Part shown: positions 9,014 through 40,100 of the stretch, in pieces | Layout: every line of letters begins with the position of its first letter | Numbering within the stretch: position 1 is the stretch's first letter | Assembly: GCF_900475285.1 (NCBI RefSeq) | Contig: NZ_LS483370.1 | Coordinates: 2,432,001-2,496,000, forward strand | Origin: Pseudomonas taetrolens | GTDB taxonomy: Bacteria; Pseudomonadota; Gammaproteobacteria; Pseudomonadales; Pseudomonadaceae | DNA: 64,000 nt | Direction of reading: 5' to 3' | Translations under genes and position numbers: made by a program | The notes under the pieces: generated by a model | What the model saw: only the letters and a program-made list of their open reading frames with translations | Databases searched by the model: none | Told to the model about the DNA's origin: nothing

Positions 9014-9336
9014 TCAAAGGCCTTAAAAACACGGCTGGACTCATGAGCGCGACAGCCGGGCTCAGTGGCACTATCTTCTCATGATTATCGCCAAGGATTG
9101 CACCATGCCCGATATTGCCTCAACGGCTGTGCCGTCGCCAGATGTGCACGACGTAGACGGCACGCAGCAGCCAGGCACCGGTCGTAAAAAGCAGCGCGGG
9201 CCAAATGGTTCAATGCACTGGCGTGAAACGCACGATACCCAACAAATTTCTCGCTTGCAGCGTTTCGGCTGGCAAAGGGCCGGCCAAGGCGGTGCGGTAT
9301 CACGCATAAGCGGGTCGAGTCCGGGTTGTTACTTTT
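9014..9336. other. Intergenic region, no recognisable gene
   Basis: 323 bp between two minus-strand transporter genes. Short open frames exist on both strands, but none has a ribosome site plus a recognisable product. It must contain the promoter of the emrB-emrA pair near its left end. I see no repeat or strong hairpin. Confidence 0.4.
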
Positions 9337-24585: not shown

Positions 24586-25055
24586 TGCCGGGCTCCTTTG
24601 CCAAACACCCCGGGGACAGACTCTGGCACAGGCCGCGGAGTGACCGCTGCGGTGTGCTGGGCTTTTTCGTGATCGACGAACAGGTCCAGCAGATCCATTT
24701 CACGTAGCTCGGCGACCACCTGGGGTGGCAAATCGGAGATCTTGCCGAGGTCGCCGAACTCCCGCTGCAAGTCCATCAACACTTCGGCCCGCCAGGCGGG
24801 ATCGGCTTGGTGCTCAACCACAATACGCTTGGGCTTGAACAGCGCAGCACTGACAGCGCCTCCTGCCAGGCATCCCAGGATGCCGATCAGCATTGCATAC
24901 GCCCGGGCCATCTGGGCTGAAGCAACCAGGCCGAGGAGGATATGCTGCGCCAGGAAAAATGCGCCGAGGCTGATGACAGCACCAATGAGGATGGCGCACA
25001 CCAGGTGACGACTATTGACCGTGTCGCCCCATACTTCATATAGATCGGCCTTCAA
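24582..25055 (-). CDS. Small membrane protein, putative partner of the TctA-like permease
   Basis: 157 residues from a TTG at 25055, chosen because GGGAG precedes it and residues upstream look non-coding. Two hydrophobic segments (HLVCAILIGAVISLGAFFLA and a glycine/alanine-rich second one) are followed by a cytoplasmic tail of about 80 residues rich in charge. It sits between mvaA and the permease gene, coupled to the latter by ATGA. TctB proteins normally have four segments, so this is at most a reduced analogue. No named family recognised. Confidence 0.6.
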   Translation of the reverse strand: MKADLYEVWGDTVNSRHLVCAILIGAVISLGAFFLAQHILLGLVASAQMARAYAMLIGILGCLAGGAVSAALFKPKRIVVEHQADPAWRAEVLMDLQREFGDLGKISDLPPQVVAELREMDLLDLFVDHEKAQHTAAVTPRPVPESVPGVFGKGARQ

Positions 25056-25167
25056 AGTAATTCTCCCACTGCCCTTATGGGCTGTTGTTGTTATAAACGT
25101 GAAGAGACAAGCCTCAGCCCCGCGCACCGACCTCCGTTCGGCGCGGCGTTCGCCCTGGGTGCCCCCG

Positions 25168-26454
25168 TCACTGCGCCCGTTTTTCTTTCAGCAGTTCGCT
25201 GGCGTGATCGGCACGAACATCCCGTGCTTGCACCATGCGCTTGACCAGCCAATCCACTTCGTCGCCACGAGCACCGGCAGAGAGCGCGATATTACGGGCA
25301 TGCAACGCCATGTGGCCACGCTGGATACCTTCGGTGGACAGCGCACGCAACGCGCCGAGATTTTGTGCGAGGCCTACCGCTACTGCGATTTCTGCCAGTT
25401 CCTGGGCCGTTTTTACCCCGAGAATACGCAACGACAGTTGAGCCAGCGGATGGGTTTTGGTCGCGCCACCGACCAGTCCAACCGGCATCGGCATTTCAAG
25501 TGTGCCGACGAGATGCCCCTGGCCATCCTTTTCCCAGGTGGTCAGTGAACCGTAATGCCCTTCGCGGCAGGCGTAGGCATGTGCGCCGGCCTCGACAGCG
25601 CGCCAGTCGTTGCCTGTGGCGACGATCAATGGATCGATGCCGTTCATGATGCCTTTGTTGTGGGTCGCCGCACGGTACGGGTCAATCACGGCAAAATTGT
25701 AGGCATCGAGAATGCCCTCAATCACGTCCTCACCCTTGAACTCGGGCGTGGTGAGAAGGGCAGGTGCAATCCGGATTTGTGCGCGGGCCAGACGCAGATC
25801 GGCAAGGTTGGAGAGGATGCGCAGGCGTACTTTGCCGCCAGTGATTTCTTCAATCAGCGGTGCCACGGCTTCTGCCATCGTGTTGACCGTGTTCGCGCCC
25901 ATGGCATCCCGGACGTCGACGATCAGATGTGCCACCAGCATCGGGCCGCGAGGACTTTGGGCGAAGGTGTGGACTTCAATGTCACGACAGCCTCCGCCCA
26001 GCGTGTTCAACAGTTGATCCTTGCGATTAGCCAGTTCGATGATTTCATCTTTGCGGCGCAACAGGCTCAAGCGCGCGTTGTACGGATCCGACACCTCGAC
26101 GATCTGCACCTGGGCGCGCATCAGCGGCAAACTGCTGGAAGTCTGGAAACCGCCGGCGTCGCGGGCCAGCTTGGCCATAAACGACGCCGCCGCCACCACC
26201 GAGGGTTCCTCGACCACCAGCGGTACGATCACGTCGCGCCCATTGATTTGAAAGTTACTGGCCACGGCATACGGCAACTCGAATGTGCCAATCACGTTTT
26301 CAATCATGCCGTCGGCGATTTCCAGTGACAGCGCCCCCGGATCACGCAGCAACGCGACATCGGCTTCCGGCAGGTTCAGTACTGTTTGCAAGTGATCCAG
26401 GCGCGAAGAAGGGGACATGCCCCGGAACATCGGGAGGCGGGAATCGATAGTCAT
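25168..26454 (-). CDS. mvaA: HMG-CoA reductase, class II, degradative
   Basis: 428 residues, the same length as the well-studied Pseudomonas mevalonii enzyme and very similar throughout. Catalytic Glu is E83 ([11 protein letters not shown]). The Lys/Asp pair lies in [15 protein letters not shown] and [15 protein letters not shown], and the catalytic His is in [12 protein letters not shown]. In P. mevalonii the enzyme runs in the oxidative direction, turning mevalonate into HMG-CoA with NAD+. HMG-CoA lyase then gives acetyl-CoA and acetoacetate, but no lyase gene is in this window. First gene of the unit; AGGA before the ATG. A divergent MocR gene is the likely regulator. Confidence 0.95.
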
Positions 26455-26522
26455 GAAAGAGGTCCTGTAGCGGTTCTTATTGTTGATGAACCTAACTTAA
26501 ACCGCCTCTCGTCGACAAAGAA

Positions 26523-26557
26523 GGTACAGTTTTGACAGACAGTACCCAAGCTGTACC
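26523..26557. promoter_or_regulatory. Likely MocR operator in the mvaA/mocR divergent promoter
   Basis: GGTACAG at 26523-26529 is the exact inverse of CTGTACC at 26551-26557, with a third related copy, CAGTACC, at 26540-26546. All lie in the gap between mvaA and the MocR gene. Repeated GTACC half-sites fit binding by a GntR/MocR dimer. Confidence 0.55.
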
Positions 26558-26590
26558 CTCAACTGTCTTTCGAATCGCGGAGCTTGCGTC

Positions 26591-27961
26591 ATGGCGCATC
26601 AAACCCTTGCCCAGCGTTTTTCAGCCACGTTTGTCGAGCAGATCGTCAACGGCACCTATCGCATCGGCGACCGCTTGCCGTCCCTTCGCGAGTGCATGCG
26701 CCTGCACGGATACTCCAAGAACACAGTGATCAACGCTTATGAGTTGCTGACGACCCAAGGCTATGTCGAGGCCCGGCACGGTCAGGGCTTTTTCGTCAAA
26801 ACCGGGACGGCAAAAAGCGCCGAACCCGAAGATCCGCCGCCCTATGCGCGAGCCATGGACACGATTTGGTTAATGCGCCAGCAATTTGTCCGCGAGCCGG
26901 GACATTCCCCGTTGGGCGAAGGCTTTCCGCCGGTCGAATGGCTGATGGACATGCGCCTGGACCGGTTTACCCGACAGATCATGCGCACCGGTGTCACCAC
27001 CCTGTTTCGCTACGGCAATCGCCTGGGCAACCCCGGGCTACGTCAGCATCTGGTGCAAAAGCTTGCCGGCTACACCATCGCAGCCACACCCCGGCAGATT
27101 GTCACGACCCATGGTGCCAACCACGCGCTGGATTTGATCATTCGCCGTTTCGTGGCCCCCGGCGACTGCGTACTGGTTGAAAACCCGGGTTACTACCCGT
27201 TGTTTGGCAAATTGCAATTGCAGGGCGCACGCATGCTGGCCGTTCCGCGGCTGGCCGACGGGCCAGACATCGATGTGCTCAGACACGTGCTGAAAACACA
27301 GCGGCCCAAGCTCTTTTTCATTCAGTCGGTCGGGCATAACCCAACCGCTTCGGATATTTCCCCCAGCAAGGCCCATCAGTTGGTGCAAATTGCTGAAGAG
27401 CACCAACTGATACTGGTCGACGACGATGCGCTCGCCGACTACAAACCGACCTCGGCAATCAGGGTGTCGGCACTGGATCAGCTCAAGCGCACGCTCTATG
27501 TCGGCAGTTTTTCCAAGTCGATATCAGCGGCATTGCGCGTAGGCTTCATTGCCGGCAACAAAGAGGTGATTGATGAACTGGGTGACTTGAAGATGCTCTT
27601 GCACACCAGCTCATCGGAGTTCTGCGAACGCGCAGTGGATGTCATCCTTGGCGAGGGGCATTTCCTGCGACATCTGATGCGCTTGCAGGAACGCGCCAGA
27701 ACAGCGACGGCCCAGAGCTTGCAGTTACTTGACGACATCGGCGCCGAGGTTTTTGCCCGCCCCGAACAAAGCCTTTACCTGTGGGCAAGATTCCCATCGT
27801 TTGATGATGCAAGAGAGCTGACGCGAAAGCTGCTGCCCAAAGGTTTCATGATTGCCCCCGGGCATATTTTTTCGCCTGTGCAATCAGACGTTAACCCATG
27901 GACGAGACTGAATGTCGCCTATCTGAACAACCCGTTGTTGAAGGCGGCGCTTTCCAGGTGA
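26591..27961 (+). CDS. MocR-family regulator (GntR HTH plus aminotransferase-like domain)
   Basis: 456 residues. An N-terminal GntR winged helix (QRFSATFVEQIVNGTYRIGDRLPSLRECM, KNTVINAYELLTTQGYV) is joined to a fold-type I PLP aminotransferase domain. The PLP site has VDDDALADY and the lysine motif VGSFSKSISAALRVGF. MocR regulators sense amino-type ligands or PLP through this domain. Transcribed away from mvaA with repeated GTACC half-sites between, so it probably controls mevalonate use. That would be an unusual regulator for this pathway. Confidence 0.85.
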   Translation: MAHQTLAQRFSATFVEQIVNGTYRIGDRLPSLRECMRLHGYSKNTVINAYELLTTQGYVEARHGQGFFVKTGTAKSAEPEDPPPYARAMDTIWLMRQQFVREPGHSPLGEGFPPVEWLMDMRLDRFTRQIMRTGVTTLFRYGNRLGNPGLRQHLVQKLAGYTIAATPRQIVTTHGANHALDLIIRRFVAPGDCVLVENPGYYPLFGKLQLQGARMLAVPRLADGPDIDVLRHVLKTQRPKLFFIQSVGHNPTASDISPSKAHQLVQIAEEHQLILVDDDALADYKPTSAIRVSALDQLKRTLYVGSFSKSISAALRVGFIAGNKEVIDELGDLKMLLHTSSSEFCERAVDVILGEGHFLRHLMRLQERARTATAQSLQLLDDIGAEVFARPEQSLYLWARFPSFDDARELTRKLLPKGFMIAPGHIFSPVQSDVNPWTRLNVAYLNNPLLKAALSR

Positions 27962-28036: not shown

Positions 28037-28072
28037 TGTATCGCTACGTATCAGCAGGCGGCTCTGATACGT
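28037..28072. promoter_or_regulatory. GTATC direct repeats and palindrome ahead of the DUF2790-dipZ unit
   Basis: TGTAT at 28037-28041 and CGTAT at 28047-28051 are 10 bp apart, start to start. ACGTATCAG at 28046-28054 is also an exact inverse of CTGATACGT at 28064-28072. The 10 bp spacing is typical for OmpR-type regulators, and the same half-site recurs at 29888, 32031 and 35078. Confidence 0.6.
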
Positions 28073-28203
28073 GGCGATTTACACGTGCGTGTTCTCGACA
28101 CAGACAAGATACCTCGCAGGCTTTTAATAGGTTCATCGAGGCCAATCTGCACCGCCTCGGTTCAACCCAACGAACTGCCTATTGAAGCCTTGAGGGAACC
28201 GCC

Positions 28204-28467
28204 ATGAACACCAAAGCCATCTACGCCACCTTCCTGTTTGCCGCCCTGAGCCTGTGCACGCTTTCAGCCCGGGCCGAAACCAGTGTCACCCCGAAGCCCT
28301 ACAGCTACGGCTCGCAGCTGGACATCAAGAAAGTGCTGTCGCTCAAGCAAGAGGCCACAACGGGCTGCGGCATTGTCGATGCCCGCATGACCTACCTGGA
28401 TTCTCACGACAAGGTCCAGGTTATGAGCTACCGAACATTTGCTGACGGCTGCATCGGGGAAAACTGA
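28204..28467 (+). CDS. DUF2790 small exported protein
   Basis: 87 residues with a Sec signal peptide (cleavage near LSARAET, about residue 24). The mature part has YGSQLDIKKVLSLKQEATTGCGIVDARMTYLDSHDKVQVMSYRTFADGC, the DUF2790 pattern (LDI.KV, C-G-V-V-.A.M.Y.DS.G). DUF2790 genes in Pseudomonas are often found close to metal-responsive two-component systems. Ribosome site GAGGGAACC. It opens the copper-linked locus, downstream of the GTATC repeats. Function unknown; two conserved cysteines may form a disulfide or bind metal. Confidence 0.8.
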   Translation: MNTKAIYATFLFAALSLCTLSARAETSVTPKPYSYGSQLDIKKVLSLKQEATTGCGIVDARMTYLDSHDKVQVMSYRTFADGCIGEN

Positions 28468-28514
28468 GTCTTGGTTGACCTGCCGACACTGCCTTTTGAT
28501 ACAGGAAGCCACTC

Positions 28515-28544
28515 ATGAACAGCCTCACCTGTTTTACACGGTGA
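28515..28544 (+). other. Possible 9-codon leader ORF overlapping the dipZ start region
   Basis: An ATG with a good ribosome site (ACAGGAAG) opens a frame MNSLTCFTR and stops at TGA 28542-28544. This overlaps an in-frame GTG for dipZ (28541) and ends six bases before its first ATG (28550). It could be a translational coupler, or a sign that dipZ once started here and suffered a frameshift. Confidence 0.35.
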
Positions 28545-28549
28545 CCCGC

Positions 28550-29800
28550 ATGCTACTTATCGCGTTTCTGGGCGGCATATTGACCGTTCTCAGCCCCTGC
28601 ATCCTGCCCGTCGTGCCGTTCCTGTTCGCGGGTGTTGACCGCTCTCGCGCCTCGATCCTGCTGACTCTGGGCGGCATGGTCTTGACCTTCGCCCTGATCT
28701 CGAGCCTGGCGGTGGTGAGCAGTGAGTGGGTGGTGCACGCCAGTCACAGCGGCCGTCAGGTCGCTCTGGTCGTGATGGCGTTGTTCGCCTTGTCATTGCT
28801 TTCGGCGCGTATCGGCGGCTGGCTGGCCCGGCCATTCGTATGGCTGGGCAACCGGATCTCGCCCGACACGCGCACGATGTCCGCCCCGCTGAGGTCAGTG
28901 CTGATCGGTATCGCCACGGGGCTGCTGTGGGCGCCGTGCGCTGGTCCGATCCTAGGGGTCATCCTCACGGGGGCCATGCTGCAAGGTGCCAATGTACACA
29001 CCAGCCTGTGGTTGGTGGCCTATGGCCTGGGCAGCGCGTTGTCTCTTGGAACCTTGATCTTCGCCGGTCGCGGCCTGGTCAATCGTCTGAAAGCGTCAAT
29101 CCCGATCACTGGCGTGTTACGTCGCGGGGCCGGAGTCGCGGTACTGGCTGCGGTATCGGTGATGTTCACCGGAGCCGACAAAACCTTGCTGGCCGGCACC
29201 TCATCCGAAAGCGTCAGCCGTATCGAGAACAGGGTACTGAGTGCCGTACCGAAAATGCTCGATTACCTGGTCAGCAAGGGCAGGGCCGACATGCGCCTTG
29301 CTCCTGCACAGCGCGCGATGCCGTCGTTATCCGGCGCGGTCGATTGGCTCAACTCGCCAGCACTGAGCAGTGAGTCGCTCAAGGGCAAAGTGGTGCTGGT
29401 GGATTTCTGGACTTACGATTGCATCAATTGCCAGCGCACGCTGCCTTACGTGAAAGGCTGGGCGAGAAAGTACGAGAAGGACGGTCTCGTGGTCATCGGC
29501 GTCCATACCCCGGAATACGGCTATGAACGGATCATTGACAACGTCAAGGATCAGGTCAGGAAGCTCGACATCACCTATCCGGTGGCCATCGATAATAACT
29601 ACGCGATCTGGAATAACTATGGTAACCAGTACTGGCCTGCTCACTACCTGATCGACGCCACGGGGCAGGTGCGTTACACCCACTTCGGTGAAGGGGGCTA
29701 TGACACTCAGGAGAAGCAGATTCAGACATTACTGGCGGAGGCGAAATCCGGGAACACTACTCAGATGCCGGATGCCAGCCCGTCGCAGCCCCATCGGTGA
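28550..29800 (+). CDS. dipZ: DipZ-like CcdA/thioredoxin fusion protein
   Basis: 416 residues from the ATG at 28550 (GTG at 28541 possible). A CcdA/DsbD-like membrane domain with six segments carries the paired cysteines C17 (LSPCILPVVPF) and C130 (WAPCAGPIL). After a linker, a thioredoxin-like domain has C291-I-N-C294 (YDCINCQRTLPY). Such proteins move reducing power across the membrane to periplasmic thiols. M. tuberculosis DipZ has a further C-terminal domain that is absent here. Placed beside a copper-RiPP system, it could keep precursor or metallochaperone cysteines reduced. That is an inference. Confidence 0.8.
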   Translation: MLLIAFLGGILTVLSPCILPVVPFLFAGVDRSRASILLTLGGMVLTFALISSLAVVSSEWVVHASHSGRQVALVVMALFALSLLSARIGGWLARPFVWLGNRISPDTRTMSAPLRSVLIGIATGLLWAPCAGPILGVILTGAMLQGANVHTSLWLVAYGLGSALSLGTLIFAGRGLVNRLKASIPITGVLRRGAGVAVLAAVSVMFTGADKTLLAGTSSESVSRIENRVLSAVPKMLDYLVSKGRADMRLAPAQRAMPSLSGAVDWLNSPALSSESLKGKVVLVDFWTYDCINCQRTLPYVKGWARKYEKDGLVVIGVHTPEYGYERIIDNVKDQVRKLDITYPVAIDNNYAIWNNYGNQYWPAHYLIDATGQVRYTHFGEGGYDTQEKQIQTLLAEAKSGNTTQMPDASPSQPHR

Positions 29801-29867
29801 ATGGTGTGTTTCACGGCACCCGGGGCGAAGGCTTTAGCAAAACGATCAGCCCGGGATTTGCATCTGC

Positions 29868-29902
29868 GTGTATCCATGCGGCGCTCGATACACTGCAATA
29901 CA
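29868..29902. promoter_or_regulatory. TGTAT repeats ahead of the response regulator
   Basis: On the minus strand two TGTAT half-sites (ATACA at 29888-29892 and 29898-29902 on the plus strand) are spaced 10 bp. GTGTATC at 29868-29874 is also an exact inverse of GATACAC at 29887-29893. This suggests autoregulation by the encoded OmpR-type protein. Confidence 0.6.
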
Positions 29903-29970
29903 AAGCCCGGCGGGCAGATGCCTCGTGCCTCGGTATGCTGGGAAACTGCACACACTGAGAGGTTGAAGGG

Positions 29971-30711
29971 ATGGAACACATCGATCATGTGTTAATCGTC
30001 GATGATGATCGCGAGATCAGAGAACTGGTGGGCAACTACCTGACGAAAAACGGATTGCGCACCACGGTGGTGGCAGACGGCCGCCAGATGCGCGCTTTTC
30101 TGGACGCCAATCAGGTTGACCTGATCGTGCTCGACATCATGATGCCGGGCGATGACGGTCTCTTGCTGTGCCGCGAACTGCGGGCCGGCAAGCACAAGAA
30201 GACGCCGGTGTTGATGCTGACCGCGCGCAACGATGAAACCGACCGCATCATCGGCCTGGAGATGGGCGCCGATGACTACCTGAGCAAGCCGTTCTCTGCC
30301 CGTGAGTTACTCGCACGAATCAACGCCGTACTCCGGCGCACGCGAATGCTGCCGCCCAATCTGGTGGTCAGCGAGAGCGGCCGGCTGTTGGGGTTCGGTC
30401 GCTGGCGTCTCGATACCACCGCTCGCCACCTGCTTGACCAGGACGACACCCTGGTCGCCCTGAGCGGGGCCGAATACCGTCTGCTGCGGGTTTTCCTCGA
30501 TCACGCACAACGGGTACTCAGTCGCGATCAATTGCTCAATCTGACCCAGGGTCGCGACGCCGACTTGTTCGATCGCTCCATCGACCTGCTGGTCAGCCGT
30601 CTGCGTCAGCGCTTGCTGGATGACGCCCGTGACCCGGCCTACATCAAGACGGTGCGCAGTGAGGGGTACGTGTTCACCTTTGCCGTCGAAATCCTGCCGG
30701 AGCAACCATGA
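29971..30711 (+). CDS. OmpR-family response regulator, probable copper/RiPP locus regulator
   Basis: 246 residues. The receiver domain has acidic residues D11-D13 (VLIVDDDRE), phospho-acceptor D55 (IVLDIMMPG) and the lysine in DDYLSKPFSARELL. The C-terminal winged helix is LSGAEYRLLRVFLDH to RSEGYVF. Start at the ATG at 29971. The stop overlaps the kinase start (ATGA). Its own upstream region and three others in the locus carry TGTAT pairs 10 bp apart, the spacing used by OmpR-type dimers. It is the natural candidate to control dipZ, the maturation operon and the precursor. Confidence 0.9.
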   Translation: MEHIDHVLIVDDDREIRELVGNYLTKNGLRTTVVADGRQMRAFLDANQVDLIVLDIMMPGDDGLLLCRELRAGKHKKTPVLMLTARNDETDRIIGLEMGADDYLSKPFSARELLARINAVLRRTRMLPPNLVVSESGRLLGFGRWRLDTTARHLLDQDDTLVALSGAEYRLLRVFLDHAQRVLSRDQLLNLTQGRDADLFDRSIDLLVSRLRQRLLDDARDPAYIKTVRSEGYVFTFAVEILPEQP

Positions 30712-32015
30712 ATCGCGTGCTGCACTGGCCGCGCACGCTGGCCTCACGCCTGTCCTTGATCTTTCTTGTCGGCCTGATTCTCGCGCAGGCCCTGTCATTC
30801 GGAGCCCAGTATTACGAGCGCTACGAGAGCGCGAAGTCGATGATGCTGGGTAACCTCGAAACCGACGTCTCGACCTCCATCGCCATTCTCGACCGTTTGC
30901 CCGCGGCTGAGCGCCCGGGCTGGCTCGAGCGCCTGCAACGCACTAACTACGGCTATCTGTTGAAAGAGCGCGACCCCGGCGTGCCCATGGACCGGGACAA
31001 TCTGCCGATCGCCGTACACTCGATCAAAGACGCCCTCGGCCATGACTATGAGTTGACGTTCGAGGAAATTCCCGGTCCCCGACAACATTTCCAGGCGCAG
31101 TTGCAGCTGAGCGACGGCAACCCTGTCACCCTCGACGTCTGGCCCGCGATGATGCCACTGTCGCCATGGTTACCCATTGCCCTGTTCGGTCAGTTCGTCC
31201 TGATGATTGGCTGCACCTGGCTCGCCGTCAGAATTGCCGTTCGGCCACTGACCCGGCTGAGCGAGGCGGTCGAAAAGCTCGACCCCAATGCGCATCCGGT
31301 GCGCCTGGATGAAAGCGGCCCCACCGAAGTGGCACATGCGGCCAAGGCCTTTAACACCATGCAGGAACGTATCGCGGCCTACCTCAAGGAACGCATGCAA
31401 CTGCTCGCGGCCATCTCCCATGACCTGCAAACGCCGATTACCCGCATGAAGCTGCGCGCGGAGTTCGCCGACGATTCAATCGAGAAGGACAAACTGGTCC
31501 ATGACCTCAACGAAATAGAACACCTGGTGCGTGAAGGCATTGCCTATGCGCGGAGCATTCATGGAGCGACCGAGGCCAGTTGCCGGATCAATCTTGATTC
31601 GTTCCTCGACAGCCTGGTGTTTGACTATCAGGACACCGGCAAGGCCGTGACCCTGGCCGGGAAAAGTGGCGCAATCATCGACACCCGCCCCCATGCCCTG
31701 CGACGGATTCTGGTCAATCTGGTGGACAACGCGGTGAAGTTCTCCGGTGCCGCCGAAGTGCGGGTGGAAGGGCAGAGCCCTGCCGGCCTGTCGATCAAGG
31801 TACTGGATCGTGGCCCGGGGATTTCCGAGGACGTGTTGCACGAAGTCCTCAAACCGTTCTATCGCGTAGAGAACTCCCGCAACCGCAGTACCGGCGGTAC
31901 CGGCCTGGGGCTGGCCATCGCTCAGCAATTGGCCGAGGCCATTGGTGGCTCGCTGACCCTGAGCAACCGCGAAGGCGGGGGGCTCTGCGTGACGTTGCGT
32001 CTGACGGCCCGGTAA
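30708..32015 (+). CDS. Sensor histidine kinase partner of the 29971 regulator
   Basis: 435 residues. Membrane segment at about 13-35, a periplasmic sensor loop of roughly 120 residues, a second segment near 156-176, HAMP linker (VRPLTRLSEAVEKL), H-box with H238 (LLAAISHDLQTPITRMKLR) and the catalytic N (LVNLVDNAVKFS), G1 (LDRGPGISED) and G2 (TGGTGLGLAIAQQLAEAIGG) boxes. Coupled to the regulator by ATGA. The periplasmic loop has no cysteine and few histidines, so a direct copper site like that of CusS is not obvious. The signal remains open. Confidence 0.9.
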   Translation: MNRVLHWPRTLASRLSLIFLVGLILAQALSFGAQYYERYESAKSMMLGNLETDVSTSIAILDRLPAAERPGWLERLQRTNYGYLLKERDPGVPMDRDNLPIAVHSIKDALGHDYELTFEEIPGPRQHFQAQLQLSDGNPVTLDVWPAMMPLSPWLPIALFGQFVLMIGCTWLAVRIAVRPLTRLSEAVEKLDPNAHPVRLDESGPTEVAHAAKAFNTMQERIAAYLKERMQLLAAISHDLQTPITRMKLRAEFADDSIEKDKLVHDLNEIEHLVREGIAYARSIHGATEASCRINLDSFLDSLVFDYQDTGKAVTLAGKSGAIIDTRPHALRRILVNLVDNAVKFSGAAEVRVEGQSPAGLSIKVLDRGPGISEDVLHEVLKPFYRVENSRNRSTGGTGLGLAIAQQLAEAIGGSLTLSNREGGGLCVTLRLTAR

Positions 32016-32030
32016 TACATCAGCGGCTTT

Positions 32031-32045
32031 TGTATGGCACTGTAT
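32031..32045 (+). promoter_or_regulatory. TGTAT direct repeat ahead of the maturation operon
   Basis: TGTAT at 32031-32035 and again at 32041-32045, exactly 10 bp apart, lie just after the kinase stop and about 140 bp before the next gene. They match the repeats at the other three promoters of this locus, so the operon from 32188 probably has its own regulated promoter. Confidence 0.6.
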
Positions 32046-32187
32046 CGACCACTGCCGTGCACACACAACATTGCACAACGGCGGGTTTCAGACATCACGG
32101 ACATACACGCACTTGCAAGACTCCCAACGGTCGGCTGGCCATCCGGACGCCCCGGATGGCCAAGGCCATTGCCACAGGAGTTTTGCC

Positions 32188-32811
32188 ATGACGCCCCAAC
32201 CCTTCAAAGGCTGGCCTCTGTTCAGCCTGCTTGCAGTGTTCATCCTGATAATGAGCGCGCTGGCCGTGGCGCTGCAGCCAGACCTGATCGAGGGACTGCG
32301 CAGCGCCATTCGCGCCACTGCACGCTCATCCTTTGTCCTGTTTCTCACGGCTTTTACCGCCTCCGCCTTTGCTGTCCTGATCCCTTCGCCTGTCACTAAA
32401 GCCCTGGTGCGCGAGCGACGTTTTATCGGGCTGGCCTTCGCCTTTTCCCATGCCGTTCATGCCGTATTGATCTATGCCTACGGGCAACTGAACACCGGGT
32501 TCTGGCCGATGCGCTCGCTCATCGACAACACCCCGGGCACGGTCGCCTATGGATTCATTCTGCTCATGGCGATCACCTCGTTCAAAGGTCCGGCACAACT
32601 GCTGGGAGCAAAAGCCTGGAAGACCCTGCATACCACCGGCCTGTGGATCATCGTTGCCGTGTTCGCCTACGCCAACTTCAAACGCATCCCCATGAGTGCC
32701 TGGTACATCCTGCCGTTCGGCATGGTCTGTGCCGCGGTCGCCATTCGCCTGGTGGGCAAGTTGGCCCAGGCCAACAAGCGCCGCCAGCAACCCGCAAGGG
32801 CTGCAGCCTAG
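32188..32811 (+). CDS. Ferric-reductase-like transmembrane protein
   Basis: 207 residues from the ATG at 32188 with ACAGGAG ahead. Six hydrophobic segments contain RRFIGLAFAFSHAVHAVLIYAYG and KTLHTTGLWIIVAVFAYANF. The paired histidines in the first (SHAVHAV) and the lone one in the second (LHTTG) fit the heme-binding ferric-reductase/MsrQ membrane fold. First gene of an operon continuing with DoxX, MNIO and DUF2063 genes. It may supply electrons at the membrane or reduce Cu(II) to Cu(I). The role in this system is inferred, not known. Confidence 0.7.
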   Translation: MTPQPFKGWPLFSLLAVFILIMSALAVALQPDLIEGLRSAIRATARSSFVLFLTAFTASAFAVLIPSPVTKALVRERRFIGLAFAFSHAVHAVLIYAYGQLNTGFWPMRSLIDNTPGTVAYGFILLMAITSFKGPAQLLGAKAWKTLHTTGLWIIVAVFAYANFKRIPMSAWYILPFGMVCAAVAIRLVGKLAQANKRRQQPARAAA

Positions 32812-32844
32812 CCCGAATCCGAACCGATCACAGAGGATCAAACC

Positions 32845-33369
32845 ATGCACGCAACCCCTACATCCGCCCTGAAGTGGCTTCACCTGAACCTTGATCGCGC
32901 CGCAGGCTGGGTTGCCCCCCTCAGCCTGCGAGTGTTCCTGGCGTGGGAGTTTTTCGAGGCTGGCCTGCAAAAGTGGAACGGCGAAAATTGGTTCCAGGAC
33001 ATCCAGTCCGCTTTTCCTTTTCCATTCAACCATGTCCCGGCGACGCTGAACTGGCAGCTCTCGATGTGGGCCGAACTGCTCTGCGCCATTGCCTTGTTTG
33101 CAGGCCTGGGAACACGTCTCTCGGCCTTTATCCTGATCGTGGTCACGCTCGTGGCGACCGCAACCGTCCACTGGCCAGCCGATTGGTCGACATTCAGCGA
33201 ACTGGCCCGGGGCTACGCCATCAGCAACACAGGCTACGGCAACTACAAACTGCCTCTGATTTACCTTGTGGCGCTCGTGCCGCTGCTCTTTACCGGCGCA
33301 GGAAAGCTGAGCCTGGACGCGCTCATCGCACGATATTTCAGATTGGCGACGACCTTGGGCGCGAAGTAA
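32845..33369 (+). CDS. hvfX: DoxX-family membrane protein, HvfX/GigD-like
   Basis: 174 residues with four predicted membrane segments. The DoxX pattern is seen in [20 protein letters not shown] and in [20 protein letters not shown]. DoxX-family genes accompany DUF692 and DUF2063 genes in the gig/buf/hvf copper- and gold-responsive operons, where the product is named HvfX, GigD or BufD. It lies 33 bp after the ferric-reductase-like gene and 53 bp before the maturase gene. Its molecular role is not established in any of these systems. Confidence 0.8.
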
Positions 33370-33422
33370 CTCTGGGGGCTCGGAAGCTCATTTTCCTGAT
33401 ACAGAATCGGAGCATTCAACGT

Positions 33423-34283
33423 ATGCGAACAACTCTCTCACCATCCATGCCGGCAGGCGCAGGGCTCGGACTACGCCGTGCACTGCTGAATATGCTGCGT
33501 GACGCCCCCAGCGGTGATTTCGACTTTCTGGAAGTGGCCCCGGAAAACTGGATCGGCATCGGTGGCGCTCACGGTGACGCCCTGCAGTCGCTTGCCGAAC
33601 GCTACCCGCTGTCGTGCCACGGCCTGTCCCTGTCGCTCGGGGGCAGTGCTGCGCTCGACACAGACTTTTTGCAGCAGATTCGCGGATTTCTCGACCGTTT
33701 CAACGTGCCGTTTTACAGCGAGCACCTGAGCTACTGCAGCGACGACGGGCATCTGTACGACCTGTTGCCTTTGCCATTCACCGAAGAGGCGGTTTTTCAT
33801 GTCGCGGCGCGGATCCGTTGCGCACAGGACATCCTCGGGCGACGGTTGGCGGTGGAGAACGTCTCCTACTACGCTGCAGCCCATCAGGACATGGATGAAC
33901 TGGCCTTCACCAATGCGGTACTGCGCGAAGCCGACTGCGACCTCTTGCTCGACGTCAATAATGTGTACGTTAACTCGGTGAATCACGGGTTTGACCCTAA
34001 GGCTTTTCTGGCGGGCGTGGAACCCGGCCGGGTGATCGCCATGCATGTGGCCGGTCATTATGATGAAGCCGACGACTTGATCATCGACAGTCATGGCGCT
34101 GCGGTGAAACCCGTGGTCTGGTCGCTGCTGGCGCAAGCCTATGGGCTGTTTGGTACGAAGCCGACACTGCTTGAACGCGATTTCAATTTCCCTCCTTACG
34201 CAGCGCTGGTCGCCGAGCTGGATACCATCCGGCGGCTGCAAGGCGAGGCAAACGCACTGGTGCGGGAGGCCCACAATGGTTGA
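33423..34283 (+). CDS. hvfB: MNIO-family (DUF692) RiPP maturase, HvfB/BufB-like
   Basis: 286 residues from the ATG at 33423. The DUF692 TIM-barrel signatures are present: [69 protein letters not shown], and [19 protein letters not shown]. The His, Asp, Asn and Glu residues in these motifs are the ligands of the multinuclear iron site in MNIO enzymes. The family turns precursor-peptide cysteines into oxazolone/thioamide or thiooxazole groups. The stop overlaps the partner gene by 8 bp. The EGKCG precursor gene about 1 kb downstream makes this function very likely here. Confidence 0.9.
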
Positions 34284-35046
34284 CATCTCGCCGGACTTGC
34301 ACAGCCAGCAGCTTGCGTTGACCCGTTACCTGCGCGACCCGGACCGCCATGCACCGCCTGCGGGGATGGATGCCGCGAGGGCGAGCATCTACCTCGACCT
34401 GGTATTCAACAATCTGTCGGGCGTGCTGGGCGGAACATTTCCGGTGCTGATTGCAGTGCTGGGTGAGGCTGGCTGGCGTGACCTGATACGACGATTCCTG
34501 CGTGAGCACCGGGCGAAAACACCGTATTTCGGTGAAATCGCGCAGGAGTTTGTGGCATTTGTCGCCTGCCTGGAGGTGTCGTCAGATCAAGCACAACCCG
34601 GGTATCCGTTCCTGCCTGAGCTCGCCCATTACGAGTGGGTGGAGATGGCCTTGCAACAGTTCGAAGCGCCGCCGTTTCAGGGGGGCGATATCGAGCACAT
34701 GCTTGATCGCCCGCTCAGGCTATCACCGCTCGCCTGGCCGCTGGCCTACACCTGGGCCGTACACCGCCTCGGGCCCGGGCACCTGCCGGACGTAGCGCCG
34801 GAACAGCCAACCTTACTGTTGATCCGGCGCTTGCCGGCAGGGCAGGTGCGGTTCTGCGAACTCAGTCCGCTGGCATGGCGTCTGCTGCAGCGAATCGAGC
34901 AATTCCCTGAACTGAATGGTCAGGCGCAGTTGCAGGGTTTGGCCGGGGAGGCCGGCGCGACAGATTTGCCCCGCTTCATGGCCGATGCACGGGTGCTCCT
35001 GGACCAGCTGCATGAGCAGGCCGTCGTCGGCGTGGTGGAGGCGTGA
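34276..35046 (+). CDS. hvfC: DUF2063 (HvfC/BufC-like) RiPP maturation partner
   Basis: 256 residues starting inside the end of hvfB (8 bp overlap), so tightly coupled. The N-terminal DUF2063 domain ([41 protein letters not shown]) is followed by a C-terminal part with [19 protein letters not shown], typical of HvfC/BufC. These partners bind the precursor and present it to the MNIO enzyme. Despite the domain's older label of putative DNA-binding, a peptide-recognition role is the current view. Confidence 0.9.
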
Positions 35047-35077
35047 CCGTGCCTTCTATCAAGCGCGGCCCTGCCTT

Positions 35078-35156
35078 TGTATCGCGGTGTATCGGCGGGA
35101 CGTATCCCGGGGTTGGCTTACAAATGCGTTTGCCACGGGATACATCAGGGATACAT
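35078..35156. promoter_or_regulatory. TGTATC repeats in the promoter region of the RiPP precursor
   Basis: TGTATCG at 35078-35084 and again at 35088-35094, exactly 10 bp apart. A second pair in the opposite orientation (ATACAT at 35140 and 35151, spaced 11 bp) follows, with another GTATCCC at 35102. This 285 bp gap separates hvfC from the precursor gene. The precursor thus probably has its own promoter under the local regulator. Confidence 0.6.
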
Positions 35157-35331
35157 GGCTGCGGCTAAATGGTCTTGCCCGAATGAAGTTGCCCGATCGA
35201 GGTGAAGGTTGTTTGCGCGCATGTCGCTGCGCAACTCCCGGTTTACCTCTTCGCCGGGTGCTTCCCTGAGGCAGCCCAGCCCTTGTGGCACGACCCGCGG
35301 CCTGGCCGCACACAGCTTCTGGAGAAACACT

Positions 35332-35862
35332 ATGTACCGTATCCCGTTATCGAATAAAAAATCCCTCGGCCTTGCCGCTATCGCGTTAGCCGGGGGCATG
35401 AGCCTGGCGTCATCTGCAGCCTTTGCTGCAGCCCCCCTGCCTCAGGGCTATCAATTGGCCGCAGCGGACAAAACCGGGGAGGGCAAGTGTGGTGAGGGCA
35501 AATGTGGTGCCAGTGAAGCCACTGACAAGGCCGCTACCACCGAAGGCAAGTGCGGAGAAGGCAAATGCGGGGCCAGCGAAGCCAGTGGCAAGTCCGCCGC
35601 GGCTGAAGGCAAGTGCGGGGAAGGCAAATGCGGCGACGCGTCCTTCACCCGTACCGACACCAACGGTGATGGCCGGGTTTCGCTCAAGGAACTCCTCACC
35701 GTAGCCCCGAAAGGCGCTGAGGAATTCAAAGCGATTGACACGAACAACGATGGTTACCTCTCCGAAGCCGAGGTCTACTCGTTCAGGAGCAACCAGTACA
35801 CCGCCAACGGCAAAAAAGTCCCCACCGAACTGTTCACCCGTCTGAGCAAAGCCCGGAGCTGA
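35332..35862 (+). CDS. hvfA: EF-hand-fused EGKCG RiPP precursor (HvfA/bufferin-like copper-binding protein)
   Basis: 176 residues from the ATG at 35332 with GGAG ahead. A signal peptide ends near AFAAAP (about residue 32), so the product is exported. Residues 50-101 hold three blocks of EGKCGEGKCG separated by ASEA-type linkers: six EGKCG units with the protein's only cysteines (C53, C58, C74, C79, C95, C100). The C-terminal half carries two complete EF-hand loops, D109-E120 and D136-E147. EGKCG is the modification motif of HvfA and of bufferin-type RiPPs, whose cysteines become copper-binding heterocycles. A calcium-binding module on the same chain is unusual. Role in periplasmic copper buffering is inferred. 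Confidence 0.9.
   Translation: MYRIPLSNKKSLGLAAIALAGGMSLASSAAFAAAPLPQGYQLAAADKTGEGKCGEGKCGASEATDKAATTEGKCGEGKCGASEASGKSAAAEGKCGEGKCGDASFTRTDTNGDGRVSLKELLTVAPKGAEEFKAIDTNNDGYLSEAEVYSFRSNQYTANGKKVPTELFTRLSKARS
35479..35634 (+). repeat. Three coding repeats of the paired EGKCG motif
   Basis: Codons 50-101 of the precursor. Three copies of a ten-residue EGKCGEGKCG block start at residues 50, 71 and 92, an exact 21-residue period. The first linker is ASEATDKAATT and the second is ASEASGKSAAA. The regular period suggests expansion by tandem duplication of a 63 bp unit. Confidence 0.9.
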
Positions 35863-35875
35863 TCCCGGCACGTGC

Positions 35876-35925
35876 ACCGCTCTCCCTTTCTGCGGTTACA
35901 GATGGGGAGGGCGGTTAGTTTTCTG
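35876..35925 (+). terminator. Terminator of the precursor gene
   Basis: ACCGCTCTCCC at 35876-35886 pairs with GGGAGGGCGGT at 35905-35915 (one U-G pair), and a T-rich tail (TAGTTTTCT) follows. It lies 14 bp after the precursor stop and separates it from the RND operon. Confidence 0.6.
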
Positions 35926-36023: not shown

Positions 36024-37190
36024 ATGAAAGTAAAACCCGTCATCCTGATCACTGCGGCGATAAGCGTCGCGCTCACTATGACCGGATGCAGGGAGACGGT
36101 GTCTACCGCCACTCCTGTGCAGCCACCGAGCGTGCCGGTAGCCACGGTGAGCGTTCGCCCCGTGACACCCTTTTTTGAGTTCACCGGTTCATTGACAGCG
36201 ATCAAGCGGGTTGAGCTGCGTCCGCGGGTCGCCGGCTATCTTCAGGATGTCAGCGTTCCGGAGGGCCGCTTTGTCAAGAAAGGGGACAGGCTTTTTGTCA
36301 TCGACCCCCGGGAGTTTCAGGCCGCGACAAACGCCGCTGCGGCTCACCTGCGTGAAACCAAAGCGGCATCCAGGCTTGCGCAGGCGCAATACGCGCGGGC
36401 CGAACGGCTGTTCGCTCAAAAGGTCGTCGCCCGTGATCGGCTCGACACCGCAACAGCCTCCCTCAATGCCAGCAGAGCACAGGTCGACGCCGCAAAGGCC
36501 GCACTGGAGGCTGCACAACTGGACCTGAGTTTCACCCGTATCACGGCCCCGATCAGTGGCCGTGTGGGCCAAACCCTCGTCACCGAGGGCAATTACGTCG
36601 CCAGTGGTGTGACACCGCTCACGACCATCGTGTCGAACAATCCCCTGCATGTTTATTTCGATGTCGATGAACGCACCTATCTACACTCCCTTGCCCAAGG
36701 CCGGAGCAACGCCAAGCCCTATGGGGCCCGGCCGGCAAACGTCAGGGTAGCGCTGCTCACCGACGAGACGTATTCACGGACCGCTCACCTCGACTTCATC
36801 TCCAACACCGCGGACCGCGGGACCGGAACCATGCGGGTCCGCGCGGTAGTCGATAACCCCGACGGGCAATTGACCCCCGGACTGTTTGTCAGGGTCAAAC
36901 TGGAGACCGGGGCGCCGCAAACCAGGGTGCTGGTGTCCGATCAGTCGATCGGTACCCACCAGGGCAGCCGTTATGTGCTGGTGGTCGACAAGGACGATAC
37001 GACCCAATACCGCGCCGTCGAAACCGGCAACATGCTCGACGGTTTGCGCGTGATCGAGCACGGCCTGCAGCCGGGCGAACGCATCGTCGTCAAGGGGCTG
37101 GTGCGTCCGGGCATGCACGTCACGCCGCAGCCTGTCGCGATTGACGGTACACCCGTTGCGGTGCAGCAAACCGTGGGGGCCGCGAAATGA
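36024..37190 (+). CDS. RND efflux periplasmic adaptor (MexE/AcrA-like lipoprotein)
   Basis: 388 residues. Lipoprotein signal peptide with lipobox TMTGC (Cys near residue 22), so anchored to the inner membrane. Lipoyl halves (RVAGYLQDVSVPEGRFVKKG and ITAPISGRVGQTLVTEGNYV) flank a short helical hairpin (about 95-160), followed by beta-barrel and membrane-proximal domains. Closest in style to MexE. Stop overlaps the pump gene by 4 bp. It links the RND pump to the outer-membrane channel encoded two genes on. Confidence 0.9.
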   Translation: MKVKPVILITAAISVALTMTGCRETVSTATPVQPPSVPVATVSVRPVTPFFEFTGSLTAIKRVELRPRVAGYLQDVSVPEGRFVKKGDRLFVIDPREFQAATNAAAAHLRETKAASRLAQAQYARAERLFAQKVVARDRLDTATASLNASRAQVDAAKAALEAAQLDLSFTRITAPISGRVGQTLVTEGNYVASGVTPLTTIVSNNPLHVYFDVDERTYLHSLAQGRSNAKPYGARPANVRVALLTDETYSRTAHLDFISNTADRGTGTMRVRAVVDNPDGQLTPGLFVRVKLETGAPQTRVLVSDQSIGTHQGSRYVLVVDKDDTTQYRAVETGNMLDGLRVIEHGLQPGERIVVKGLVRPGMHVTPQPVAIDGTPVAVQQTVGAAK

Positions 37191-40100
37191 ATTTTCCACG
37201 CTTCTTTATTGATCGCCCGGTGTTTGCCATCGTCCTTTCGATTTTGATGATGATCGCTGGAATCGTTGCGTTTTTTCAGTTGCCGCTCAGCGAATATCCG
37301 GCAGTCACCCCGCCCACCGTGCAAGTGACCGCCGCCTACCCGGGCGCCAACCCCAAGGTCATTGCTGACACGGTGGCAGCACCACTGGAACAGGCGATTA
37401 CCGGGGTCGAGGGCATGCTGTACATGTCGTCGCAGTCGGCAACGGATGGCCAGATGACCCTGACGGTCACCTTCGCACAGGGCACCGATGCCGATATGGC
37501 TCAGATCCAGGTGCAAAACAGGGTCTCGCGCGTGCTCTCGCGTTTGCCTGAAGAGGTACAGCGCCAGGGCATCGTCACGAAGAAAACCTCGCCGGACATT
37601 CTGATGGTGGTTCACCTGTTGTCGCCCGACAAGCGCTTCGACCCGCTGTTCATTTCCAATTACGCCTACCTCCAGGTGCGCGATGAGTTGTCACGCATCC
37701 CGGGCATCAGCGACGTCCTGGTTTGGGGCGCCGGCGAATACAGCATGCGGCTCTGGCTCGATCCGGATCTGATCGCCGCACGCGGGCTGACGGCCGGCAA
37801 CGTGATTGCCGCCGTGCGCGAACAGAACGTGCAAGTCGCCGCCGGTTCCGTGGGCCAGGCGCCCAATTCCAGTGCGGCATTCCAGGTGACGGTGAACACG
37901 CTCGGGCGGTTGACCGACGAGGAGCAGTTCGGCGACATCATCATTCGTACGGGCAGCGAAGGGCAGGTCACGCGTTTACGCGATGTCGCCCGCATCGAAA
38001 TGGGCGCTGATGGTTACGCACTGCGCAGCCTGCTTGACGGCGAACCGGCCGTTGCGCTGCAGATCATTCAGAGTCCAGGCGCCAACGCACTGGATGTTTC
38101 CCGGGCGGTACGCGACACCATGCAGCGGCTTGAAACCCACTTCCCGGAAGGACTTGTCTCGCGCATCGCCTATGACCCGACAGTCTTCGTCCAGGCGTCC
38201 CTCGAGTCGGTTGCGATCACACTGCTGGAAGCGATTCTGCTGGTGGTGATCGTGGTCGTGGTGTTCCTGCGTAACTGGCGGGCTTCGCTTATCCCCCTGA
38301 TGGCGGTGCCGGTGTCATTGGTCGGGACCTTTGCGGTCATGCATCTGCTGGGTTTTTCGCTCAACACGTTGTCGCTGTTTGGCTTGGTGCTGTCGATCGG
38401 GATCGTGGTGGACGACGCCATCGTGGTGGTCGAGAACGTAGAGCGTCACATCGACAATGGCGAGGAGCCCACGCAAGCTGCCAAGCGCGCGATGGCGGAG
38501 GTCACCGGCCCGATCATTGCGATCACCTCGGTGCTGGCCGCCGTTTTCATTCCGACCGCGTTCCTGAGCGGTCTGCAGGGTGAGTTCTATCGTCAGTTCG
38601 CCTTGACCATCGCGATCTCGACCCTCCTGTCGGCGGTTAACTCGCTCACCCTCAGTCCGGCGCTGGCCGGCATGCTGTTGCGACCCCGTCTCGACGCTGT
38701 CGAGCTTGATCCGAATAGTCTGCGAGGGCGCGCTGATCGTGTGTTGCAAGCCCTGAGCCGACCCTTCCAGCGTGCGCCTGACGCTTACAGCAAGACGGTA
38801 CGCAAGGTTTTGCGACGCCGGGGCGGGGCGCTGGTGGTTTATGGCGGACTGCTCGTGCTGACCTTCTTCGTGTTCCAGTCGGTGCCCCCGGGGTTCGTGC
38901 CGATGCAGGACAAATATTACCTGGTGGCGATCGCCCAGTTACCCAATGCGGCATCGCTGGATCGAACCGAAGAAGTCGTCAAGCAGATGACCCGGATCGC
39001 GCTGGCCGAACCGGGTGTCGAAAGCGTTGTCGCCTTCCCGGGGCTGTCGATCAACGGTTTCGTCAATGTGCCCAACGCGGCGGTGATGTTCATCATGCTT
39101 GATCCGTTCAAAGCTCGAACGACGCCCGATCTGTCCGCGAGCGCGATCACGGGCCGTCTGCAAGCGCAATTCAGCAGCCTCCCGGACGGCTTTCTCGGCG
39201 TGTTCCCGCCACCCCCGGTGCCCGGTCTTGGAGCCACCGGCGGCTTCAAAATGCAGATTGAAGACCGCGGCGGGGCCGGGCTCGAAGCCCTGGTCCAACA
39301 GACCCATATCCTGATGACCAAAGCCTCTGAATCAGGACTGGTGGCCGGCCTCATGACCAGTTTTGATGTCAATGCCCCGCAACTCGACGTGGTTATCGAC
39401 CGGACCCGGGTCAAAAGCCAGGGTGTCCTGCTGGCAGATGTATTCGAAGCGCTCCAGGTCTATCTGGGCTCGTTGTATGTCAACGACTTCAACCGCTTCG
39501 GCCGCACCTACAAAGTGATGGCCCAGGCGGATACCGAGCATCGAATGCAAGCCGAAGCCATTACCCGCTTGCAGGTGCGCAACGCTGCCGGGGACATGCT
39601 GCCTTTATCCTCGTTTGTCACGGTCACGCCAGGCTCAGGACCGGACCGGGTGATTCGCTACAACGGCTATCCTTCGGCCGATATCACGGGCGGCGCGATG
39701 CCGGGCATCAGTTCGGGGCAGGCGGTGGCTGCCATGGAGCGCCTGGCGCAGGAAGTGCTGCCTGAAGACATGAGCTTCGAGTGGACCGACCTGACGTATC
39801 AGCAAAAGCTCGCCGGAGACTCGGCGCTGTTCATTTTCCCGCTGTGCGTACTGCTCGCTTATCTGATCCTTGCCGCGCAATACAACAGCTGGTTGCTGCC
39901 TCTGGTGGTCATGCTGATCGTCCCGATGTGTCTGCTGAGCGCGATCATTGGCGTGTGGCTGGTGGGCGGCGACAACAACGTGTTCGTCCAGATCGGGTTG
40001 ATTGTGCTGGTCGGTCTGGCCGCCAAGAATGCCATCCTCATTGTCGAGTTTGCGCGAAGCCGTGAAGCCGAAGGCGCAACCGCACTGGAGGCCGTTATCG

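Follow-up and report, generated by a model that had tools for sequence, protein, structure and literature searches.

In a 64,000-base window of the Pseudomonas taetrolens genome (contig NZ_LS483370.1 of assembly GCF_900475285.1, forward-strand positions 2,432,001 to 2,496,000; coordinates below count from the first base of this window), nine neighboring genes encode a ribosomally synthesized and post-translationally modified peptide (RiPP) pathway of the HvfABCX type together with an OmpR-type two-component system, two membrane redox proteins and a small exported protein. We read this locus as the environmental-Pseudomonas form of the bfmRS-efhP module, working through an exported precursor that is modified to bind metal, and put the probability of this reading at about 0.6. 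The genes are tied together by a recurring neighborhood and by promoter boxes that fit the response regulator encoded among them; the nine genes are a recurring, conserved unit, but not a private one. The two-component system looks like the counterpart of Pseudomonas aeruginosa BfmRS, and the precursor like that of EfhP (PA4107). Judged from its sequence, the exported product appears to be calcium-binding and chemically modified, and it is probably copper-binding. Published findings are quoted here from parts of the cited papers.

A preliminary description of this DNA had proposed a self-contained copper-RiPP locus with its own sensor. The nine genes that it named are present: the open reading frames of the window include all of them on the plus strand, about where they had been placed, and the family models agree, some of them marginally or from below the cut-off.

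28204..28467, + strand: small exported DUF2790 protein of 87 amino acids (PF10976, 61.3 bits against a cut-off of 27; signal peptide by eye)
28550..29800, + strand: DipZ-like protein, a CcdA/DsbD-type membrane part and a TlpA/ResA-like thioredoxin domain with a CINC motif (Pfam, invariant cysteines)
29971..30711, + strand: BfmR counterpart, OmpR-type response regulator (PF00072, PF00486)
30708..32015, + strand: BfmS counterpart, sensor histidine kinase (HAMP and HATPase_c over the cut-off; HisKA just below it, 25.7 against 26.9)
32188..32811, + strand: fre, ferric-reductase-like heme-type membrane protein, PA4103 counterpart (PF01794, marginal at 28.3 bits against 28)
32845..33369, + strand: HvfX, DoxX-family RiPP maturation protein, PA4104 counterpart (NF050144, 147 bits against 80)
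33423..34283, + strand: HvfB, MNIO-type RiPP maturase, PA4106 counterpart (NF003818, 410 bits against 360)
34276..35046, + strand: HvfC, DUF2063 partner or recognition protein, PA4105 counterpart (NF050145, 250 bits against 142)
35332..35862, + strand: HvfA or EfhP-type precursor (NF050137, 67 bits against 19.5; EF-hand_5)

The precursor starts with a signal-peptide-like N-terminus (by eye), which is followed by a QGYQLAAA segment, the EGKCG units and finally the EF-hands. Its six EGKCG units, already counted in the preliminary description, stand at residues 50, 55, 71, 76, 92, and 97 and contain all six of its cysteines. Two canonical EF-hand loops, DTNGDGRVSLKE (residues 109-120) and DTNNDGYLSEAE (136-147), lie 27 residues apart and had been overlooked. 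The compact core was described correctly, with hvfB and hvfC overlapping by 8 bp (34276-34283) and hvfX to hvfA spanning 3.0 kb, within the 3.1 kb that had been given. HvfB, HvfC, HvfX, and the HvfA domain model KCGExKCG_twice (NF050137) all exceed curated NCBIfam cut-offs, which places the locus in the HvfABCX family; the full-length HvfA equivalog NF050188 gives the precursor 50.5 bits against a cut-off of 95, a shortfall that the EF-hand fusion may explain. Thus the former label "Hvf/bufferin-type" stands in its first half. Its second half, a filing under the bufferins (Buf1/Buf2), is rejected because the BufB maturase model NF050167 reaches 269 bits against a cut-off of 310, and no DUF2282 match was found in the precursor with Pfam. 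In the Protein Data Bank, the matches of the regulator are OmpR relatives in general, including a BfmR entry (5hm6, 6br7), which we take to be the Acinetobacter protein of that name. HvfC matches 3DEE (E 2.4e-5), and HvfB has a structural homologue in 3BWW (E 1.6e-78), a protein that has been called closely related to Haemophilus HvfB (PMC13419390). In four other loci (L037, L040, L047, L048) the precursors carry EGKCG units on both sides of the EF-hands, so that the two modules have been shuffled.

By the printed gene descriptions, seven of the nine genes are of the types found at PA4101-PA4107 in P. aeruginosa, where PA4101-4102 are bfmRS, PA4103 is ferric-reductase-like, PA4104 DoxX, PA4105 DUF2063, and PA4106 DUF692 (PMC4148453, PMC4053335, PMC4918941), and PA4107 is EfhP with its two EF-hands (PMC4053335; also PMC4148453, PMC4918941). 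EfhP has four EGKCG units (PMC11559002); its last residue is 155 and its loops occupy residues 88-99 and 115-126 (PMC4053335, PMC9132961). The precursor of the window shares the N-terminal signal or transmembrane segment (by eye), the EGKCG units, and two EF-hands 27 residues apart. Among the loci fetched for comparison, L123 has a precursor of 154 amino acids that fits the printed EfhP, with EGKCG at residues 48, 53, 70, and 75 and EF loops that start at 87 and 114 and are likewise 27 apart. Precursor, hvfBC, hvfX, fre, kinase, regulator, and DUF2790 gene are all present at this locus, with no DipZ match in the stretch, and its regulator is 87% identical to that of the window. In P. aeruginosa, PA4103-PA4107 were among the seven genes upregulated more than 10-fold in the absence of bfmS (PMC4148453), and BfmR controls the efhP operon, efhP being upregulated 11,268-fold (PMC8025907).

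The published BfmR box is GATACAnnGC (PMC4148453), the site at PA4103 of strain PAO1 being a variant with one mismatch (PMC4148453), and a longer motif, TACAA-N3-GATACA, has also been reported (PMC8025907). Exactly four GATACAnnGC sequences occur in the 64-kb window, and all four lie in promoters of the module, namely those of the regulator's own operon, the PA4103-type gene, and the efhP-type gene. Together with single hexamers in the gaps before other genes, the sites are:

29887..29896, + strand: exact box GATACACTGC before bfmR (a further GATACA at 29869, - strand)
32037..32046, - strand: exact box GATACAGTGC before fre
35084..35093, - strand: exact box GATACACCGC before hvfA (part of TGTATC-N42-68-GATACA)
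35150..35159, + strand: exact box GATACATGGC before hvfA (a further GATACA at 35139)
28037..28042, - strand: GATACA hexamer before the DUF2790 gene (one exact; four GATAC[AG] in the gap)
28498..28503, + strand: GATACA hexamer before dipZ (may be chance)
33398..33403, + strand: GATACA hexamer before hvfB (may be chance)

GATACAnnGC occurs 145 times in the 4.84-Mb genome, and a reversed control pattern 55 times; at the rate of the genome, the 1,162 intergenic bases of the module should hold 0.035 copies, against the four seen (P about 6e-8). GATACA itself is the top hexamer of these 1,162 bases, which hold 10 of the 17 copies in the window (shuffle mean 0.38), and the arrangement TGTATC-N42-68-GATACA is found at one place in the whole genome, the hvfA promoter.

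The same hexamer marks the promoters of relatives. Three samples were compared, consisting of 149 genomes of the genus, 80 named loci, and 20 loci fetched from the family; the promoter survey covers the latter 100 loci, with a background of 0.19 GATACA per kb. GATACA was enriched 45-fold before the regulator (61/64 promoters), 61-fold before the DUF2790 gene (35/35), 21-fold before fre (12/13), and 43.5-fold before hvfA (25/25), the bfmR and DUF2790 promoters not being independent where they are divergent and overlap. The 61/64 include 11 regulators of less than 80% identity that were split off later; before regulators more than 80% identical, the count is 52/53. Of the hexamers found in at least 40% of the loci, GATACA takes first place before fre, hvfA, and hvfB; it comes fourth before bfmR and fifth before the DUF2790 gene. 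At hvfX the enrichment is 3-fold (6/39), with a site in 0/14 loci that have fre and in 4/7 loci that have the regulator and lack fre, which is the pattern that a box at the head of an operon would give. Boxes stand before hvfB in 44/46 loci without an upstream precursor, versus 1/54 loci with one.

Precursor genes far from hvfBC also carry the boxes. In 20 fetched places of this kind, GATACA lies at most 400 bases upstream of all 19 precursor open reading frames (19/19; no such frame was found in L109). Eleven of these places (L097-L103, L110-L112, L114) have precursors of 67-69 amino acids with EGKCGEGKCG and GATACA upstream, and without EF-hands. Where the precursor lies beside hvfB and the regulator elsewhere in the genome, GATACA was found in 13/14 places. 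In the 10 genomes without the regulator (one of which, G133, is 88% complete), neither GATACA in the precursor promoters (0/10) nor EF loops in the precursors (0/10) were found. A second precursor type (L165-L174, L188) has SNPFAAQEL-like leaders and lacks both an EF-hand and an upstream GATACA; genome G063 carries both types. The simple rule that boxes depend only on the presence of bfmR in a genome was rejected on the evidence of L188, the three other unlinked places that were added having boxes. Since L188, with a precursor of the second type, lacks a box despite bfmR in its genome, the boxes track precursor lineage. Taken together, the box pattern supports control by BfmR, short of proof, regulator content and lineage being confounded.

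These sites and the published properties of EfhP bear on an alternative in which the precursor is mainly a sensor of calcium, and perhaps of iron, as proposed for EfhP, its cysteines staying unmodified or serving to sense iron. The two canonical EF loops fit such a role, recombinant EfhP binds Ca2+ with a dissociation constant of 13.7 uM (PMC9132961), and iron sensing through the EGKCG cysteines has been proposed by the authors who studied EfhP (PMC11559002). The protein that was measured, however, lacked its signal sequence and came from Escherichia coli, apparently without co-expressed HvfBC, and hence was the bare form (PMC9132961). Furthermore, an EGKCG precursor occurs somewhere in the genome in 61/64 genomes with HvfB, and the short precursors without EF-hands have the same kind of upstream sites. 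We regard a calcium sensor of this kind as unlikely.

The co-occurrence that the preliminary description had asked for is found, as the nine genes lie together in a single locus in 6/20 fetched loci (L117, L120, L121, L122, L125, L136) and in 4/80 named loci (L001, L047, L048, L071; partial gene matches counted, some loci being cut by contig ends), subsets of them recur, and the promoter motif is shared. In the 149 genus genomes, HvfB exceeds its cut-off in 64 genomes (66 places, counted as 66 rows over the cut-off), and the regulator gives 102 matches in 81 genomes at a threshold of E <= 1e-100. They occur together in 54 genomes (Fisher p about 1e-10, uncorrected for relatedness). HvfB lies within 10 kb of the regulator in 36/66 places and within 10 kb of a short-form DipZ in 29/66, and short-form DipZ lies within 10 kb of the regulator in 43/52 (52 of 82 DipZ rows, leaving out 28 long-form rows with open frames of 588-628 and two fragments in G038). 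In a frequent layout, hvfA-hvfB-hvfC face hvfX-fre and bfmSR, while DUF2790-dipZ diverge from bfmR. In a class-wide sample, close matches of the regulator are rare (8/368 other genomes at E <= 1e-85, seven of them with 60-64% identity). Two Rheinheimera loci, L069 and L074, still have the regulator and the kinase together with fre, hvfX, and hvfABC. The window locus departs from its relatives in one respect, hvfB and bfmR running in the same direction here and in opposite directions in the other 35/36 linked places. This departure could suggest a chance neighborhood of unrelated genes, an explanation that the recurrence of the neighborhood, and of the boxes at unlinked precursors too, makes barely credible.

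The two membrane redox proteins were examined residue by residue. The most likely start of the DipZ-like frame is ATG 28550; the codon at 28514, which was used in the queries and from which residues are numbered here, is not a start codon. Its thioredoxin part passes the Pfam cut-offs for AhpC-TSA and Redoxin, and its DsbD-type membrane part remains under them (22.7 against 24.9; 22.1 against 27.1). Cysteines 29, 142, 303, and 306 are invariant in 39 aligned rows, giving a membrane cysteine pair and a CxxC thioredoxin site. The label DipZ is taken over from the preliminary description, and we presume that it denotes a CcdA-TlpA fusion. In the product of fre, histidines 88, 91, and 148 are invariant in 13 aligned rows. 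An assignment of this protein to MsrQ/YedZ was rejected, its resemblance to MsrQ being weak (25.9 bits in the curated model against a cut-off of 130).

For the mechanism, we infer cysteine modification, export, Cu(I) binding, calcium coupling, and reduction by DipZ and the heme protein. BfmS would register a disturbance of the envelope and activate BfmR, which would amplify its own operon and switch on the other arms. In the cytoplasm, HvfBC would convert the six EGKCG cysteines to 5-thiooxazole groups, and the modified product would be exported by Sec. In the periplasm, a soft metal, Cu(I) or one like it, would be bound by the thiooxazole thiols. Ca2+ taken up by the EF-hands would make the folding of the product, or its location, dependent on calcium. 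Electrons would pass in DipZ from cytoplasmic thioredoxin over the membrane cysteine pair to CINC, and together with the heme protein DipZ would hold the thiols or the metal in the reduced state. For this precursor, thiooxazole conversion and Cu(I) binding are predictions made here. In the published system, HvfB and HvfC together form copper-binding 5-thiooxazoles on HvfA (PMC13419390), HvfBC being unreactive toward disulfide-bonded HvfA (PMC13419390), and up to four Cu were bound by an EGKCG product whose cellular role was left open (PMC13097082).

The same proteins could instead serve defence against oxidants, with the modified thiols soaking up periplasmic reactive oxygen or chlorine species, DipZ and the MsrQ-like heme protein recycling them, and metal binding being secondary. 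This role would suit the two membrane proteins that supply electrons and whose redox residues are invariant, one of them weakly MsrQ-like; oxidative stress is among the inducers of such clusters (PMC13097082), and strain FRD1 without efhP was less resistant to H2O2 at high Ca2+ (PMC4053335). That effect, however, was reported for cells at high Ca2+ (PMC4053335), the MsrQ cut-off is missed by a wide margin, and the EGKCG product that has been studied bound Cu (PMC13097082). We consider oxidant defence rather unlikely as the principal function.

Several observations weigh against the locus as a bfmRS-efhP module with a metal-binding product. The longer motif TACAA-N3-GATACA has no exact match in the window. 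The promoters that were compared are related, so that their counts are not independent, and L188 has a precursor of the second type, without a box, in a genome with the regulator. GATACA, in one or two copies, is also found upstream of nine regulators of no more than 54-56% identity (seven from loci titled Stenotrophomonas, one [Pseudomonas] hibiscicola, and one Bacillus), and the hexamer may therefore serve a wider regulator family and not BfmR alone; these nine (L051, L054-L057, L060, L062, L063, L068) lie 7.5-7.9 kb from hvfB. At the thresholds used, 27/149 genomes have bfmR without hvfB and 10/149 have hvfB without bfmR. DipZ and the heme protein are absent near many hvfBC loci, and against a tight unit it also counts that 43/48 of the Pseudomonas loci L002-L049 have no open reading frame with two EGKCG-like units beside hvfB and that fre was matched in 2/48 and hvfX in 5/48 of them (some cut by contig ends). 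Finally, 20 regulator places away from hvfB (L137-L156; 8 second copies and 12 only copies) have EGKCG nearby in none; DUF2790, DipZ, or fre is kept in 15/20 of these places, and GATACA precedes the regulator in 18/20. One of them, L143, has at 8465-9732 a second bfmR copy with no kinase match, next to a small cysteine-free repeat protein of RVAEGGADRLQELRE units with a similar signal peptide.

The input to the kinase tells against a metal-binding role as well. In 55 aligned rows, no cysteine or histidine is invariant in the presumed periplasmic part of BfmS; Met46 is present in all 55 rows (at least 90% of a 30-sequence alignment) and His127 in 91%. A structure model of BfmS (predicted local distance difference test 76.6, predicted template modelling score 0.41) found in Foldseek mostly kinase cores such as CpxA among its top matches, which are uninformative on a ligand. 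The bfmRS promoter was 3.52- to 3.71-fold upregulated under osmotic stress by NaCl or sucrose (PMC10924945), the efhP promoter responds to Ca2+ and Fe (PMC11559002), and no copper/metal response of efhP or bfmRS was found in the parts of PMC8025907, PMC10924945, PMC11559002, PMC11195947, and PMC13209446 that were available. As far as these sequences go, copper sensing by BfmS is unsupported. The preliminary description had seen here a private, copper-sensing two-component system dedicated to the RiPP, which is consistent with the position of the regulator inside the unit and with the fact that the top three BfmR regions from chromatin immunoprecipitation in P. aeruginosa are these operons (PMC8025907). 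However, BfmR binds at 174 regions in P. aeruginosa (PMC8025907), and bfmR occurs without hvfB in the 27 genomes mentioned. A private copper sensor is rejected because the presumed periplasmic part of BfmS lacks an invariant cysteine or histidine and because of these 174 regions; we hold it to be quite improbable.

The bfmRS-efhP reading can be carried beyond this locus as a tentative proposal, which we think somewhat more likely to fail than to hold. Across Pseudomonas, the principal job of BfmRS could be a calcium-gated thiooxazole metallophore system, EfhP being the bare form of an MNIO-modified RiPP for Cu(I) or another soft metal that is kept reduced by DipZ and the heme protein, and periplasmic metal or redox load and calcium would thereby feed the biofilm and quorum-sensing switch. 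In the parts of the literature consulted, work on BfmRS and EfhP has so far treated them as factors in virulence, biofilms, and calcium biology and has assigned the module no biochemical task. If the precursor is a modified metallophore, the calcium- and metal-binding data obtained with the bare protein would have to be measured again with the matured protein, and BfmRS would acquire a definite output that can be assayed. A comparative system is at hand in the genomes, with bfmR linked, unlinked, or absent and with precursors that have or lack EF-hands.

Around the module, an RND efflux adaptor and pump (by eye) follow directly after hvfA at 36024-40366. They were rejected as part of the module, the gap before them being without GATACA and none of the 80 named loci having an RND match; all that was found is weak MFP matches (26-30% identity) in some loci of Stenotrophomonas and its relatives. 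A further regulator of the OmpR type is encoded at 42975-43667; it shares 47% identity with the BfmR counterpart. Upstream, the region 23197-27961 contains by eye a class II HMG-CoA reductase (25168-26454, - strand) and a TctA/TctB-like transporter, with a MocR-type regulator adjoining that is supported by the family models, and is perhaps a mevalonate-use locus.

According to the preliminary description, these genes are seldom shown together as one system. This holds in part, since a figure of 2016 already showed seven of the nine as PA4101-PA4107 (PMC4918941), the available sections of that paper giving them without the RiPP reading and without DUF2790-DipZ. EGKCG-EF-hand fusions and their link to EfhP have been published (PMC12452194), and EfhP and a ferric-reductase gene were mentioned there in small numbers of MNIO clusters (PMC12452194). 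In the main text of PMC12452194, as far as it was available, we found no mention of two-component, regulator, histidine kinase, thioredoxin, DsbD, or BfmR. In searches of the open-licence PMC literature, mostly of result listings, no paper was found that joins BfmRS to an MNIO RiPP or DUF2790-DipZ to the unit, or that describes the boxes on unlinked precursors. As far as this literature shows, the link between BfmRS and an MNIO RiPP and the addition of DUF2790-DipZ appear to be new, and BfmR control of efhP and the core cluster were already known.

Among known systems, the oxazolin HvfABCX locus of Haemophilus influenzae and the captophorins (fontiphorin, FonABC) have the HvfB, HvfC, and HvfX models and the EGKCG repeats in common with the window locus, which differs from them in its EF-hand fusion, BfmRS-type control, heme protein, and DipZ arm, the Haemophilus and Fontimonas loci being compared by description only. 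The bufferins and gig operons (BufABC) share the core of MNIO, DUF2063, and DoxX, but here the maturase falls below the bufferin cut-off and the precursor is without DUF2282. The landscape paper on MNIO enzymes describes fusions of Buf_EGKC with EF-hand_5 (PMC12452194), and the precursor of the window is of this EGKCG-EF-hand type. The counterpart at PA4101-PA4107 (bfmRS, PA4103-PA4104, and PA4105-PA4106-efhP) has the same seven gene types and bears the printed box at the three corresponding kinds of promoter; an EfhP-like precursor is encoded at L123. In the available accounts it is described as a biofilm and virulence regulator beside a calcium protein with four EGKCG units, whereas the locus described here has six and is read as a RiPP system, and DUF2790-DipZ is part of the unit in many relatives of the present locus.

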